Position numbers and translations under genes: made by a program. Below the pieces are notes generated by a model. The model ran no database searches. It had not been told where the DNA came from and worked only from the letters and a program-made list of their open reading frames with translations. From Meiothermus cerbereus DSM 11376 (lineage in GTDB: Bacteria > Deinococcota > Deinococci > Deinococcales > Thermaceae), in the NCBI RefSeq assembly GCF_000620065.1, contig NZ_JHVI01000022.1, positions 1-64,000 on the forward strand: DNA of 64,000 nucleotides, in the 5' to 3' direction. Each line of letters opens with the position of its first letter. The stretch's first letter is position 1. Shown in pieces: positions 25,319-53,126 of the stretch.

Positions 25319-25555
25319 ATGCCTAGATTTACAGAACCGGAGGTTGATACGCGAATAGAAGTGGCCGTGATGATGCAGGTACACGTCCCCGACAATACCG
25401 ACCTCGACGATCTAAATATCAAGATTGACGAAGAGGGTCTGCGCTTTATGAGCAAAGGCCGCGTTATGGCCGATGCCAGCCACATCGAAGACTACTACAT
25501 CGACGATATCGAGTCGGAAGATGAGGACTGGGACGAGGATGAGGACGAGGACTAA
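25319..25555 (+). CDS. Small acidic protein of unknown function (78 aa)
   Basis: Not recognised. The N-terminal half looks like a small beta/alpha unit (EVAVMMQVHVPDNTDLDD, IDEEGLRFMSKGR). The last ~25 residues are almost entirely acidic (EDYYIDDIESEDEDWDED). Such tails are found in DNA-mimic or binding-adaptor proteins, but I do not infer a function. It starts 16 nt after the glycosyltransferase stop, so it is probably cotranscribed. An internal start at the MMQV methionines (about 25370) is possible. Confidence 0.6.
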   Translation: MPRFTEPEVDTRIEVAVMMQVHVPDNTDLDDLNIKIDEEGLRFMSKGRVMADASHIEDYYIDDIESEDEDWDEDEDED

Positions 25556-25636: not shown

Positions 25637-25798
25637 TAATACCAGATTCGGTTAGTTCGTCGCCGAACGGTGACGAACTAACCCGACCGAAGGGATACGC
25701 TTTCTTCGCCGAGCGCAGCGAGGGGTGTGCTCTAGGATTCAAAAAGATAGCCTCTTAGCGCTTTTTGTTTGAAGATTATCTTTTTGAATCCGGTATAA
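25637..25798 (+). mobile_element. Miniature inverted-repeat element (MITE), copy 1
   Basis: 162 bp with near-identical terminal inverted repeats TACCAGATTC / GAATCCGGTA, each flanked by TAA, which may be a 3-bp target duplication. Inside are two strong hairpins: GGTTAGTTCGTCGCCG with its complement (one mismatch), and GATTCAAAAAGATA with TATCTTTTTGAATC (14-bp perfect arms). It carries about 31 bp (near 25690-25722) that copy 2 at 35526 lacks; otherwise the copies are almost identical. No coding capacity. The rest of the 25556-25941 gap shows only the mqnC -10. Confidence 0.85.
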
Positions 25799-25941: not shown

Positions 25942-27075
25942 ATGGATGTTTTGAGCCGCGCAGTAGCGGGCGAACGACTCTCCGCCAACGAGATACGCGA
26001 CCTATACCAGCTCCCCTTACCCGACGTAGCTGCAGCAGCCCACGAGCTGCGGTTGCAGCGCGGCAACCCCCAGGTCGTTACCTACCTGATCGACCGCAAT
26101 ATCAATTACACCAACATCTGCAATGTGGCCTGTAACTTTTGCGCCTTCTACCGCACCAAGCGGCAGGGCGATGCCTATGTGCTTTCCTTCGAGGAGATTG
26201 GCCGCAAAATTGAAGAGCTCATGCAAATTGGCGGGCGGCGCATCCTGATGCAAGGGGGGGTCAACCCCGACCTGCCCTTTGAGTGGTACCTGGATCTGTT
26301 GCGCTACTTGAAGCAGCACTACCCCGAGGTGCGCGTTGACGCTTTTAGCCCCGAAGAGATTCTGGGCCTGGAAAAGATTACCGGGCGCGACTGCCGCGAA
26401 CTGCTAACAGAGCTCAAAGAAGCAGGTCTGGACGGCCTGCCGGGCGCGGGCGGCGAGATTCTGGTGGACGAGGTGCGGGCCAAAGCGGCTCCTGCCCGCA
26501 TCAAGAGCCGCGACTGGTTCCGCATCCTGGACACCGCCCAGAGTCTGGGACTCTACACCATTGCCACCATGGTCATCGGCTTTGGTGAGACCTATGAACA
26601 GCGCATCGCCCACCTGCTCCAGATCCGCCTTCAGCAGGAAAAGGCCCTACGCGAGTACGGGCAGGGCTTCGCGGCCTTTGCCATGTGGACGCTGCAAACC
26701 GAGCACACCCGCCTAAAGGGCAAGGCGCCGGGGGCCAGTGCCCACGAGTATCTGCAGCAGCTTTCCATCGCACGCATTGCCCTGGACAACATTCCCAACC
26801 TGCAGGCCAGTTGGCCCAGCATGGGCTTCAAGGTGGCCCAGGCCGCGCTTTATTACGGGGCCAACGACTTTGGCTCTACCATGCTGGAAGAAAACGTGGT
26901 CAGCGCAGCAGGTGGTCACAACCGCACCCACGCTACGGTGCGCCAGATTGTGCGGCACATTGCCGACGCAGGCTTTATCCCCGCCGAGCGCGACCCCTTT
27001 TACAACATCAAGCAGTACCCGGACGTAGAGGCCATCCTGAGCGAGAAGCCGCCGGTGGCGCTGCCGCTGGCTTAG
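25942..27075 (+). CDS. mqnC: Cyclic dehypoxanthinyl futalosine synthase MqnC
   Basis: 377 aa radical-SAM enzyme with NICNVACNFCAFYRTKRQGD (CxxxCxxC), QGGVNPDLP, GAGGEILVDEVR and SAAGGHNRTHATV. It cyclises dehypoxanthine futalosine in the alternative (futalosine) menaquinone pathway used by Thermus. ATG 25942 follows TAGAAT (25930-25935) and GGAGG. Its stop codon overlaps the stop of the convergent ABC permease gene by 4 nt. Confidence 0.93.
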   Translation: MDVLSRAVAGERLSANEIRDLYQLPLPDVAAAAHELRLQRGNPQVVTYLIDRNINYTNICNVACNFCAFYRTKRQGDAYVLSFEEIGRKIEELMQIGGRRILMQGGVNPDLPFEWYLDLLRYLKQHYPEVRVDAFSPEEILGLEKITGRDCRELLTELKEAGLDGLPGAGGEILVDEVRAKAAPARIKSRDWFRILDTAQSLGLYTIATMVIGFGETYEQRIAHLLQIRLQQEKALREYGQGFAAFAMWTLQTEHTRLKGKAPGASAHEYLQQLSIARIALDNIPNLQASWPSMGFKVAQAALYYGANDFGSTMLEENVVSAAGGHNRTHATVRQIVRHIADAGFIPAERDPFYNIKQYPDVEAILSEKPPVALPLA

Positions 27076-34645: not shown

Positions 34646-35515
34646 CTATTGCACGTTTTGAAGCGCGTTTTGCAGCGCCTCCCCAAAGGCCTGGGGCTGG
34701 TCAATCCAGGGATAATGGCCCGCACCCTCAATCAGCTCGAGCTGGCCGCCAACCAGGTCGGCAATGGTCTGGGCTTCGGGGTAACTGCTGGCATCCAGGG
34801 CACCCAGCAAAACCGCAGTGGCTGCCTGCACCTCGAGCACAAAGGGGGTGTAGTCTAGCCGCCAAAGCCCGTTAAGCACAAACATACGTCCCGGGGTATC
34901 GGCCCCCACCACGGTTGATCCCTCGGCGATCCACTCATATTCCATGCGGCTATGCGGGCTGGGAAACAGCAGCCGGTCGAATGCAGCCTTTGGCTCTACC
35001 GTGGCAAAAGCCTCCTGCAGCAGCCGGGTTCCGTCTTCAGGAATCTCTAGGTCTGCGTTTTCGTCCATGCCCTTCAGTGCCAGCGCGGCCCGGTAAAGCT
35101 GGCGAGCCAGCCAGGGAAAGTTGGTCCAGGGGTTGATGAGCACCAGCTGCTCGGTGGTGTCGGGCGAGCGGCGGGCATAGTCTAGGGCCAACAGCCCACC
35201 AAACCCATGCCCCAGCAGTGTCCAGGAATTGAGCCCCAGGTGGTCGCGCAGGTGGAAAAGGTCGCTCACCAGGGCATCAATGGTAAAAAGTCCGGGTTCT
35301 TCTGGAAGGGCTGGGCTGCGCCCGCCTCCGCGCTGATCCAGGTAAATCACGCGGAAGCCCTCCAGGTACTCCTCCAGACCCTCCCGCAAGGTATAGCTGC
35401 TACCTCCAGGCCCGCCGTGGAGTACCATGATGGCCGGTGCATCCAGCGGGCCAGTGTCCTCGAGGTAGACCTCTACCCCATCGTCAACTGCAATCAAATC
35501 GATTTCTTCACGCAT
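34646..35515 (-). CDS. Alpha/beta-hydrolase-fold protein (proline-iminopeptidase-like) lacking the nucleophile serine
   Basis: 289 aa. Oxyanion segment HGGPGGSS, DQRGGGRS and the C-terminal His motif EGAGHYPWIDQP match the prolyl iminopeptidase/epoxide-hydrolase-like group. At the nucleophile elbow the expected GxSxG reads GHGFGG: Gly104 (codon GGG, 35204-35206) replaces Ser. Either the protein is not a classical serine hydrolase or it is inactive. The ATG is preceded by AGGTAAGG and, 9 nt away, by TATAAC contributed by the end of a MITE (35525-35530). Confidence 0.85.
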   Translation of the reverse strand: MREEIDLIAVDDGVEVYLEDTGPLDAPAIMVLHGGPGGSSYTLREGLEEYLEGFRVIYLDQRGGGRSPALPEEPGLFTIDALVSDLFHLRDHLGLNSWTLLGHGFGGLLALDYARRSPDTTEQLVLINPWTNFPWLARQLYRAALALKGMDENADLEIPEDGTRLLQEAFATVEPKAAFDRLLFPSPHSRMEYEWIAEGSTVVGADTPGRMFVLNGLWRLDYTPFVLEVQAATAVLLGALDASSYPEAQTIADLVGGQLELIEGAGHYPWIDQPQAFGEALQNALQNVQ

Positions 35516-35525
35516 ACCTTACCTG

Positions 35526-35656
35526 TTATACCGGATTCAAAAAGATAATCTTCAAACAAAAAGCGCTAAGAGGCTATCTTTTTGAATCCTAGAGCACTCC
35601 CTTCGGTCGGGTTAGTTCGTCACCGTTCGGTGACGAACTAACCGAATCTGGTATTA
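35526..35656 (-). mobile_element. Miniature inverted-repeat element (MITE), copy 2
   Basis: 131 bp, inverted relative to copy 1 at 25637 and nearly identical apart from a ~31-bp segment missing here. Ends are TTATACCGGATTC and GAATCTGGTATTA; TTA flanks both sides (TAA in element orientation). Hairpins: 35610-35643, with perfect 16-bp arms GGTTAGTTCGTCACCG around TT, and the GATTCAAAAAGATA / TATCTTTTTGAATC pair. It lies between two genes and its right end abuts the hydrolase start. Confidence 0.88.
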
Positions 35657-35665
35657 GACCCGCCA

Positions 35666-35890
35666 CTAAAAGACGCTATCCCGTCTCCCCTCCTCGAGCA
35701 ACTCAAAACTCCAGCTACGATAACCCTCGAGCCCCGTCGCGGCAGCCTCCATCTCCGGGCCAAAAGCCCAGACCTCGAGCAGGTATAGGGCCTGTTCGGG
35801 GCGATGCAGCAGCCGGTAGGGGTGTGGGTGCAGTCGGGCCAGTGCCCGCAGGGGTTCGGGGTTCTTGCCTTCTACAAAAAGCACCTTCAT
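35666..35890 (-). CDS. Hypothetical 74-aa protein
   Basis: Not recognised. MKVLFVEGKNPEPLRALARL, then a compact alpha/beta-looking chain (YLLEVWAFGPEMEAAATGLE) and a polar tail. No signal or membrane segment. It ends 10 nt before the MITE and lies downstream of the class II aldolase gene on the same strand. Codon use resembles its neighbours, supporting a real gene. Confidence 0.55.
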   Translation of the reverse strand: MKVLFVEGKNPEPLRALARLHPHPYRLLHRPEQALYLLEVWAFGPEMEAAATGLEGYRSWSFELLEEGRRDSVF

Positions 35891-46803: not shown

Positions 46804-46817
46804 CTAATACCAGATTC
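46804..46817. repeat. Solo MITE end upstream of gatC
   Basis: TAATACCAGATTCG is identical to the left end of the MITE at 25637 (also present at 35656). The following sequence (CCCGGTTCGTTAGC) only weakly resembles the element interior and no matching right end is visible, so this is a remnant or solo end. Read on the minus strand it gives GGTATTAG just before the gatC start. Confidence 0.6.
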
Positions 46818-46941
46818 GCCCGGTTCGTTAGCAAAGGCGAGCAGGCCGGGCAAATAAAAATTGTCTTTGCTTTGTTCCTTTTGCTGTGGCCCCTGCTGTG
46901 TGGCTGCTCATTTGGTGAAAGCGTCGGGCCAGCCTGGCCCC

Positions 46942-48128: not shown

Positions 48129-49430
<1,302 letters not shown>

Positions 49431-49438
49431 CTACCGTC

Positions 49439-49510
49439 TATCCCGAAGGGAATCGTCCGCTTGGTGAACAGCGGCGCGAGCCGTCTGTCCCAGAGGGGAT
49501 CGTCCGCGTG
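49439..49510. repeat. Outlying copies of the 47-bp repeat (about 1.5 units)
   Basis: 49439-49485 and the start of a second unit at 49486 match the array at 49867-50117 (TCCCGAAGGG, ATCGTCCGC, GGTGAACAGC, GCCGTCTGTCCC in the same order and spacing). They lie in the metY leader, between the riboswitch and the metY ribosome site. Confidence 0.8.
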
Positions 49511-49527
49511 GGATTTGGGGCGCTGTT

Positions 49528-49602
49528 GGTAGGAGTTTTGCTATAGCAAAACCCCCTACCAGACGTTCTTTTATGGCTGGAAGGGGGTACGGCTTGCGCA
49601 TT
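49528..49602 (-). terminator. Expression platform (terminator/antiterminator) of the SAM-I riboswitch
   Basis: RNA ACCCCCTTCCAG (49577-49588) pairs with CTGGTAGGGGGT (49551-49562) and is followed by TTTT: an intrinsic terminator. Its 5' arm contains CCCTTC (49580-49585), which can instead pair with GAAGGG (49603-49608), overlapping the 3' strand of riboswitch helix P1. A further near-palindrome at 49528-49560 reuses the terminator's 3' arm. The layout fits a SAM-OFF switch. Confidence 0.8.
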
Positions 49603-49605
49603 CCC

Positions 49606-49785
49606 TTCTCTTATCTTTCCCAACCGCCAAGCTATGCCTAGCTTCGAACGCCGTGTGCCTACAACGTTCAGCGGATGGGCCGGAATTAGCACCGTGCAAA
49701 AAGCTTTCTGGTGATGAGCAGAAGCTTTTTGTGGGTTGCTGCGACTTCACAGGGCCGAATCCCTCCGTCGCTCTCGATAAAAGAA
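49606..49785 (-). promoter_or_regulatory. SAM-I (S-box) riboswitch
   Basis: Minus strand. P1 TTCTTTTATC (49776-49785) pairs fully with GATAAGAGAA (49606-49615). Between them come the S-box core motifs in order: GAGAG, GGAGGGA, GGCCCTGTGAAG, CAGCAACC, a P3 helix AAAAAGCTT...AAGCTTTTT, then GGTGCTAATTCC. These are conserved SAM-binding elements. It precedes metY-metX, the expected target. Confidence 0.95.
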
Positions 49786-49823
49786 CTTTTGATTGTGGCC
49801 GCGCCCCAGCGCGGATAAAAGTG

Positions 49824-49852
49824 AGTGTAGTTAGAAGGTATGGTTATGTCAA
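49824..49852 (-). promoter_or_regulatory. Promoter of the SAM-riboswitch / metY-metX transcript
   Basis: Minus strand TTGACA (49847-49852), exactly 17 bp, TACACT (49824-49829). Near-consensus. Transcription would start about 30 nt before the riboswitch. Confidence 0.88.
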
Positions 49853-49866
49853 GCCCAGTGCAAACC

Positions 49867-50117
49867 GGGCCCGGAGGGAATCATCTCGCTGGTGAACAGC
49901 CGTGGCAGCATCCTGTCCCGAAGGGGATTGTCCGCCGGGTGAACAGCCGCGTCAGCCGTCTGTCCCGAAGGGGATCGTCCGCCGGGTGAACAGCCGCGTC
50001 AGCCGTCTGTCCCGAAGGGGATCGTCCGCCCGGTGAACAGCGGCGTCAGCCGTCTGTCCCAGAGGGGATCGTCCGCCCGGTGAACAGCCGCTTTAGCGGT
50101 CTGTCCCAGCAGGGGCG
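49867..50117. repeat. 47-bp imperfect tandem repeat array
   Basis: TGTCCC recurs at 49914, 49961, 50008, 50055 and 50102, exactly 47 bp apart. The units at 49961 and 50008 are almost identical across their whole length. A diverged first unit begins near 49867 and a partial one ends near 50117. Each unit can form small hairpins (CCC-GAA-GGG, and ACAGCCG with CGTCTGT, one mismatch). It lies just downstream of gcvP and upstream of the metY promoter. 47 is not a multiple of 3 and no frame stays conserved, so it is non-coding. Confidence 0.9.
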
Positions 50118-50166
50118 AACTGGCACCGCTCAGCCAGGCCGCCACGTTAAGCGCCCTGGACGCCGG

Positions 50167-53055
50167 TCAGGCGCTATGTGTCTCTTTCTGCAGTCCCGGC
50201 GAATCGGTAGCCTGAGCGTACGCTTCCATCGGTGGGCACGAGCAGACGATGTTGCGGTCACCATAGACGTTGTCCACACGGTTTACCGGGCTCCAGTACT
50301 TGTCCATAGCCTGCTGGCCCGCAGGGAAGCAGCCCTGGGCCCTTGTGTACTTGCGGTTCCAGTGCTCATCGGCAATGTCCAGCACGGTGTGGGGAGCATG
50401 GCGCAAGGGGCTTTCGTCTGCGGTAAGTTCGCCGCGCTCGATTTGCGCAATTTCCTGACGGATGGCAATCATGGCGGCAATAAAGCGGTCGAGCTCGTGC
50501 TTCGACTCCGACTCGGTCGGCTCGACCATGAGGGTGCCGGGCACCGGGAAGCTCATGGTAGGGGCGTGGAAGCCATAGTCGATCAGGCGTTTGGCGATGT
50601 CCTCCGCGGTGATATCGCAGCGGGTTTTGAAGGCCCTGGGGTCGAGGATGCACTCATGGGCCACCAGGCCTTTTTCGTTTTTGTAGAGCACCGGGAAGTA
50701 GGGCTCGAGCCGACTAGCAATATAGTTGGCGTTCAGAATGGCCACTTCGGTGGCCCGCTTGAGCCCCTCGCTACCCATCATCCAGATGTAGGCGAAGGAA
50801 ATGGGGAGAATCGAGGCCGAGCCATAGGGGGCTGCCGCCACCGGCCCCACCGGAGCAGTTCCACCGTCAAGCGCAGGGTGCCCAGGCAGGAAGGGGGCCA
50901 GGTGAGCCTTGACCCCAATGGGGCCCATCCCGGGGCCACCCCCGCCGTGGGGAATGGCAAAGGTCTTGTGCAGGTTGAGGTGCGAGACATCGGCCCCGTA
51001 GTGGCCGGGTTTGGCCAGCCCCACCTGGGCGTTTAAGTTGGCGCCGTCCAGGTAGACCTGGCCCCCGTAGCGGTGCACAATCTCGCACAGCTCACGAATT
51101 TTTTCCTCGAACACCCCGTGGGTCGAGGGGTAGGTAACCATCACCGCCGCCAGTTTATCGGCGTGCTGCTTGGCTTTGGCCTCGAGGTCGCTCAAATCCA
51201 CATAGCCCTGCTCGTCGCAGGCCACCACCACCACCTCCATGCCGGCCATCTGCGCCGAGGCCGGGTTGGTGCCATGGGCCGAGGAAGGAATTAGGCAGAC
51301 CTTGCGCTGCCCCTCCCCTCTCGAGCGGTGGTAAGCCCGGATTGCCAGCAGTCCAGCATACTCGCCCTGGGCGCCCGAGTTGGGCTGTAGCGAGATGGCG
51401 TCGTAGCCGGTAATTTCACAGAGCCAGCGGCTCAAAGTCTCGAAAAGCTCGTGGTAGCCCTGGGCCTGCTCGGCGGGTGCAAAGGGGTGCAGGTTGGCAA
51501 ACTCGGGCCAGCTAATGGGCATCATCTCGGCGGCGGCGTTGAGCTTCATGGTGCAGGAGCCCAGGGGGATCATGGCCCGATCTAAGGCCAGGTCGCGGTC
51601 GGCCAGCTTACGCATGTAGCGCATCAGTTCGGTCTCGGAGTGGTAGCGATTGAAAACCGGGTGGGTCAGGTAGGGGCTGGTGCGCCGCAAGGCCGCAGGC
51701 AGATGGTTTTCCGGGGCAAAGTCTTCGTATTTGAACTCGCCCCCAAAGGCCTGCCAGACCGCCTCGATGACGGCGGGGGTGGTGGTCTCGTCGAGGGCGA
51801 TGCCGATATGGGCCTCGTCCACTTTACGCAGGTTGATGCGGCGGCTGCGGGCTTTGGCCAGAATCTCCTCGAGCTGGCCTTCCGCCCGAATGGTGAGGGT
51901 ATCGAAGAAGTGTGGGTTGACCGGCTCAAAGCCCAGGCGCTTTAGCCCTGCCGCCAGCACTGCGGTTTTGTCGTGTACGCTCTGGGCAATTTCACGCAGC
52001 CCGTCTGGCCCGTGATAGACCGCGTACATCGAGGCGATAACCGCCAGCAAGACCTGCGCGGTGCAGATGTTGGAGGTGGCTTTTTCCCGGCGGATGTGCT
52101 GCTCGCGGGTCTGAAGGGTCAGGCGGTAGGCCCGGTTGCCCCTCGAGTCGATCGAAACCCCCACCAACCGCCCCGGTATGGCCCGCTTAAGTGCGTCCTT
52201 AACCGCCATGTAACCCGCGTGGGGCCCACCATAGCCCATCGGTACCCCAAAGCGCTGGGCCGAACCCACCGCAATATCGGCCCCCAGCTCGCCAGGAGGG
52301 GTGAGCAAGGTAAGGGCCAGAAGGTCGGCGGCCACCACCGCCAACCCACCCGCGGCCTTTACTTTTTCGATGTAGGGCCGCAGGTCGCGGATGTTGCCCA
52401 GGGTGTCGGGATACTGAAAAATGGCACCAAACAGCCCCTCAGGGTTCAGATCGGTCTCGAGGTCTCCCACCACCAGCTGCCAGCCCAGGGGCTCGGCCCG
52501 GGTTTGCAGCACCGCCAGGGTCTGGGGGTGAAGGTTCTTATCGGCAAAAAACGCGATGCGGGGCTCTTTGCAGACCCGATGCGCTACCGCCATGGCCTCG
52601 GCCGCTGCGGTGGCTTCGTCCAGCAACGAGGCATTGGCGATGTCCAGCCCGGTGAGGTCGGCGATCATGGTCTGGAAGTTGAGCAAAGCTTCCAGGCGGC
52701 CCTGGCTAATCTCAGGCTGGTAAGGGGTGTAGGCGGTGTACCAGGCAGGGTTTTCCAACAGGTTCCGCTGGATTACGGGGGGCAGGATGGTACCGTAGTA
52801 GCCCTGCCCAATCAGCGAAGTGAAAACCTGGTTCTTACTGGCAATGGCCCGCATGCGTTCGAGCATCTCGCTTTCGCTCAGACCCGGACCGATGTTCAGG
52901 GGCGCGGCCTCGCGAATGGAGGCCGGCACGGTTTGCTCGATGAGTTCATCTAGAGATGAAACCCCCACCGCCTGAAGCATCTGCTCGATATCGGCAGGGG
53001 TGGGGCCAATGTGGCGGCGGGAAAAGTCGGTGGACTGGGGTTTACGTTGGGTCAT
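50167..53055 (-). CDS. gcvP: Glycine dehydrogenase (decarboxylating), P protein of the glycine cleavage system
   Basis: 962 aa, full-length fused form (N- and C-terminal halves of the P protein in one chain). Begins [29 protein letters not shown], the PLP-lysine segment [20 protein letters not shown] (Lys near residue 697) and [17 protein letters not shown] are present. It decarboxylates glycine and passes the aminomethyl group to GcvH. ATG 53055 follows GGAG; the upstream frame to 53094 lies within the riboswitch leader. Direct target of the tandem glycine riboswitch. Confidence 0.97.
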
Positions 53056-53126
53056 GGGGTCTCCTCTCTTCGCTGTTGCAGGGGCAGCAAACACCCGTTG
53101 CAGTCTTTGAAGAATCTTGACCCCAT
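53054..53126 (-). promoter_or_regulatory. Expression platform linking the glycine riboswitch to the gcvP start codon
   Basis: RNA ATGGGGTC (53119-53126) is exactly complementary to GACCCCAT (53054-53061), which includes the first two bases of the gcvP ATG and lies right after its GGAG. The first two bases of ATGGGGTC also belong to the P1 3' strand of the second aptamer, so aptamer folding should free the start site. Suggests translational ON control. Confidence 0.65.

Follow-up and report, generated by a model that had tools for sequence, protein, structure and literature searches.

We believe that the short, gene-free repeat bounded by TACC(A/G)GATTC in Meiothermus cerbereus DSM 11376 is very probably a non-autonomous MITE, one that was inserted with a 3-bp stagger by a transposase made elsewhere. 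This reading follows from the TNA triplet that stands on both sides of the copies and only once at empty sites. It also upholds the earlier, sequence-only reading, which had proposed a mobile, coding-free element from two copies: further copies were found, and so was the duplication when empty sites were compared. In kind the family is ordinary; what is notable about it is a covarying hairpin and a missing transposase, the latter a definite target for searches. High in copy number, recently mobile and marked by a very clean TNA signature, this MITE of Meiothermus and the genera nearest to it could serve as a strain-typing marker.

The events that gave rise to the copies can be sketched in outline. 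A DDE-type transposase, supplied in trans, would bind the short ends TACC(A/G)GATTC and cut the target with a 3-bp stagger at a TNA triplet; once the element had been joined in, gap repair would leave the TNA duplicated. We infer the class of the enzyme from the 3-bp stagger and the inverted-repeat ends, a combination that suggests a DDE transposase.

Two copies in the window

The window, by which we mean the whole stretch of 64,000 nucleotides that was analysed (contig NZ_JHVI01000022.1, positions 1 to 64,000), contains the following features.

25637-25639, plus strand: TNA target duplication, here TAA, to the left of copy A
25640-25795, plus strand: MITE copy A, 156-bp form, ends TACCAGATTC ... 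GAATCCGGTA
25650-25683, plus strand: hairpin 1 of copy A, arms of about 15 bp, pairing covaries across species
25696-25726, plus strand: 31-bp block TACGCTTTCTTCGCCGAGCGCAGCGAGGGGT, which separates the 156-bp from the 125-bp form
25735-25791, plus strand: hairpin 2 of copy A, with sequence-conserved arms (25735-25749 and 25777-25791) around a variable loop
25796-25798, plus strand: TNA target duplication, here TAA, to the right of copy A
35526-35528, minus strand: TNA target duplication flanking copy B on its right (TTA, which is TAA in element orientation)
35529-35653, minus strand: MITE copy B, 125-bp form, ends TACCAGATTC ... GAATCCGGTA
35533-35589, minus strand: hairpin 2 of copy B, with its arms at 35575-35589 and at 35533-35547 (derived coordinates, computed fold)
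35610-35643, minus strand: hairpin 1 of copy B (computed fold)
35654-35656, minus strand: TNA target duplication flanking copy B on its left (TTA, which is TAA in element orientation)
about 46804-46828, plus strand: decayed left end of a third copy, with no right end found

Copies A and B had been described as nearly identical, opposite in orientation and distinguished by an indel of about 31 bp, and this is what we observe: with the 31-bp block set aside, they differ at a single base (G/A at element position 23). The inverted repeats TACC(A/G)GATTC at both element ends, and the TAA that flanks them in element orientation, are likewise present in both copies as described. Each copy also has the two stems attributed to it, and each folds far better than its shuffled counterparts (copy A as DNA, z = -6.97; copy B as RNA, z = -6.93; in each test, none of 200 shuffles did as well). 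Copy A lies between a 78-aa ORF that ends at 25555 and a 377-aa ORF that starts at 25942, and copy B occupies the whole gap between the minus-strand ORFs at 35666-35890 and 34646-35515. Elsewhere in the window, at 49434-50123, 47-bp tandem units (CCGTCTGTCCCGAAGGGGATCGTCCGCC...) lie outside the flanking ORFs of 432 aa (48129-49427) and 975 aa (50167-53094).

Copies across the genome

The whole genome was scanned for exact matches to TNA followed by TACCRGATTC, the next base being taken to mark a left end if G and a right end if any other. The scan returned 87 left ends and 83 right ends, the latter all continuing with A; the reversed control pattern returned 0, and chance is thus ruled out. 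Paired, these ends delimit 78 elements in the 3.03-Mb genome, 49 of them 125 bp and 26 of them 156 bp long, with one each of 73, 126 and 150 bp. The flanking triplet (TAA, TTA, TCA or TGA) is identical on both sides in 75 of the 78 pairs, where the T and the A are fixed by the scan pattern and agreement by chance would be about 1/4 to 1/3. Among the copies sampled, 11 of 27 125-mers and 8 of 28 156-mers are mutually identical, and what variation there is falls chiefly in the two hairpin loops. The recent spread suspected from two near-identical copies is supported by many identical ones with TNA duplicated on both sides. Because the loop alleles AGCGC and GATGT are common to the 125-bp and 156-bp forms, our data suggest exchange of the 31-bp block, or its repeated gain or loss. 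At one locus (L159, about 1067-1116), a short palindrome has a left-type end on each side and flanks TTA...TGA, and adjoins what looks like the terminal part of a gene for a DNA cytosine methyltransferase.

Target sites and landing places

When elements of Meiothermus and Calidithermus are pooled, 186 of 206 are flanked by an identical TNA (TAA in 64, TTA in 58, TGA in 33 and TCA in 31). The pooled flanks favour T at -2, C or G at -1, G or C at +3 and A at +4, which makes for a roughly symmetric, or palindromic, preferred target, T-S-T-N-A-S-A. Comparison of occupied with empty sites bears out the duplication, since the triplet stands once where the element is absent. A single TAA is found at two empty orthologous loci of 86-88% identity (L206 against L285, and L214 against L338). 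At the site of copy A, too, relatives lack the element and have the two genes closely spaced, with flanks too diverged for proof at the level of single bases. Within the M. cerbereus genome itself, two elements (L063, L074) share one insertion point within a second dispersed repeat, other copies of which run through without an element, several of them without any gap; the copies lacking the element mostly read CAA where the two filled ones have TAA. This second repeat (GTTCTTTTTCTGGGGCCCCCGCCTGAAGCGCGGGTAGCAAC...) occurs in the window from 13526 onward, as well as at L063, L074, L080 and L085. In Calidithermus chliarophilus, MITEs land at the TAA of a GC-rich dispersed repeat, CCCCCCTTAGCAAGGGGGGCTGGGGGGGATAAACCCTCCCC (L319, L323).

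As to landing places, 37 of 51 sampled sites with enough flank fall outside called ORFs of at least 90 aa, even with the flanks joined, the ORF calls being crude and at least one 'inside' call looking spurious. The intergenic sites lie between tandem genes in 22 cases, convergent genes in 12 and divergent genes in 3; between tandem genes, the copy runs in the direction of the genes in 16 cases and opposite to it in 6. One apparent gene disruption (L016) probably involves a spurious antisense ORF.

Length series and internal modules

Element sizes increase stepwise, from 125 and 156 bp to about 194 (194-196), about 233 (232-234) and 272 bp. In relatives, a 38-39-bp unit close to CTTCCAAGGGGCGGTATCGCCCTCCGCTACGCGGATAA is present in 0, 1, 2 or 3 copies, corresponding to elements of about 156, 194-196, 232-234 and 272 bp, and nearly all of these elements have matching TNA on both sides, the 272-bp one being an exception. 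A remnant of this unit adjoins a solo end in the M. cerbereus genome (L157). The idea of the 31-bp block as an ancestral module finds only partial support: the longer forms do carry the block plus further units, but forms with and without it coexist in several species, and the direction of change is therefore unsettled.

Two hairpins with different constraints

The two hairpins are conserved in visibly different ways. Across 50 distinct left ends, selected on the four bases that follow the stem regardless of pairing and with near-duplicates removed by hand, 95.9% of the cells in hairpin 1 are paired. Double changes occur at 10 of its 15 pairs, in 62 cells against 15.9 +/- 3.2 after shuffling (0 of 500), counts that are inflated by the relatedness of the copies; controls slid along the alignment fall far below the true register. 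The arms of hairpin 2 are almost invariant in sequence, and its pairing and covariation do not rise above shuffles; such conservation of letters is what a protein-binding sequence would be expected to display. It is conceivable, though we hold it unlikely, that the left hairpin is maintained by selection on its shape and the right one by selection on its letters, and that the donor enzyme belongs to a DDE group which has yet to be linked with ends of this kind. If so, the two ends would differ in role, one read as sequence and the other as shape, either in a transposition complex that reads cruciforms or in a transcript. The family offers a testable case in which structure-guided and sequence-guided recognition can be compared. 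At the same time, template switching from arm to arm can mimic selection on shape in covariation of this kind.

The missing transposase

Mostly 125-272 bp long, the elements have no room for a transposase gene. The sequence-only reading saw no autonomous partner in the window, and none with exact ends came to light in the assembly or in the sampled relatives. The assembly contains no IS-sized pair of exact ends, save pairs formed by two neighbouring MITEs; about 2 Mb of related loci, a sample of relatives, contain no same-end carrier large enough for a transposase, and the 271-kb plasmid pMtWR-220 has no transposase-carrying element with the same ends. TACCRGATTC ends surround none of the 21 PF01609 loci of this genome, nor any PF13340 locus that was read in it or in relatives, and PF13359 is absent from all 25 genomes searched for it (this one and 24 others). 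Readable IS copies end in AGAGACTGTC, AGAGGCTGTC and similar sequences, unlike TACCRGATTC, and those truncated at contig ends have other termini.

Several candidates were rejected. An apparent autonomous element of 1166 bp with matching TAA (L111) is an IS5-family IS, with ends AGAGGCTGTCG, nested among MITE sequence; its position at a MITE end possibly reflects a site preference. A 2.8-kb pair (L265) consists of two MITEs flanking ordinary genes, and in C. chliarophilus the right ends that lack a left partner belong to longer or diverged MITEs, not to an IS. The IS5-family copies with ends AGAGGCTGTCG at L111 (1437-2342) and L132 (1432-2393) share the flanks CTG...GAT in G002.

Alternative explanations

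The source of the enzyme could lie closer to hand, if the copies are internal-deletion products of an IS that is still in the strain and is absent from the 54-contig draft assembly. We consider this doubtful. IS copies do coincide with contig breaks here, and at contig edges there are several truncated element ends; yet a collapsed IS should still leave TACCRGATTC at those edges, the unpaired ends we examined are cut or diverged MITEs, and the other Thermaceae stretches examined contain no such IS. Transposition of a quite different sort, in which a Y1 (RAYT-type) transposase mobilizes REP/REPIN- or IS200/IS605-like palindromes in single-stranded form, would suit the two hairpins near the ends, the small size and the scatter between genes. 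Y1 transposition, however, is not known to leave a target duplication, and here the TNA is duplicated in 75 of 78 pairs, the triplet stands once at empty sites and the ends are inverted repeats, so that this explanation appears extremely improbable.

The main present function of the repeat might instead be that of a structured RNA, or of a regulatory module within untranslated regions, with a part in processing, stability or termination, its mobility being a thing of the past. The compensatory changes in hairpin 1 (62 against 15.9 +/- 3.2 double-changed cells), the way copy B spans the gap between two same-strand ORFs, and the rarity of divergent-ORF sites (3, against 22 tandem and 12 convergent) all favour such a role, although compensatory change in a palindrome can also arise by template switching and purifying selection alone can give an intergenic bias. 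Identical copies with intact TNA, on the other hand, speak of recent transposition, a search of Rfam gave no match, and there is no terminator-like site near copy A. A present role that is mainly regulatory is thus quite improbable, and a MITE mobilized by a transposase made elsewhere remains our preferred reading.

Distribution and relation to known systems

Matches were found in 19 of the 41 genomes searched (that of M. cerbereus included), all from the same bacterial family, and in none of 16 drawn from the order's other families. Among the matches listed are Meiothermus taiwanensis, M. hypogaeus, M. rufus, C. chliarophilus, C. roseus and uncultured Meiothermus, and among these listed matches the MITE family was seen only in Thermaceae. 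It is present on plasmid pMtWR-220 and, as distant relatives, on a plasmid of Allomeiothermus silvanus. The sole named match outside the bacterial family among those listed, in a Zixiibacteriota MAG, has no second end, and the IMG/VR matches are isolated single ends; we attribute both to chance. None of the phage records searched carries the MITE. A literature search returned no paper on this family or on a Meiothermus MITE, and the family is apparently undescribed so far.

Members of the IS1031 group, within the IS5 family, produce a 3-bp TNA target duplication. The Meiothermus element shares this trait, a likeness tested here on the MITE side only, and we would guess, from the TNA target alone, that the donor is an IS1031-like member of the IS5 superfamily; at the same time, no transposase with the MITE's ends was found, and its termini are unlike those of the IS5-family copies read here. 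Eukaryotic Tourist MITEs and PIF-Harbinger elements also duplicate a 3-bp TNA, mostly TAA or TTA, a likeness of target only, the PF13359 transposase of PIF-Harbinger being the one absent from the 25 genomes. With bacterial MITEs such as Correia, RUP, QMITE and MITEAba12, as portrayed in the review PMC10969869, in which a term search found no Thermus or Deinococcus MITE, the element has in common its shortness, lack of genes, terminal inverted repeats, target duplication, many intergenic copies and stable transcript fold. It differs from them in its end sequences, its TNA duplication, its 31-bp and 38-39-bp modules and its covarying left hairpin. REP/REPIN sequences resemble it in having paired hairpins scattered between genes, whereas the Meiothermus element has a true TNA target duplication and inverted-repeat ends.
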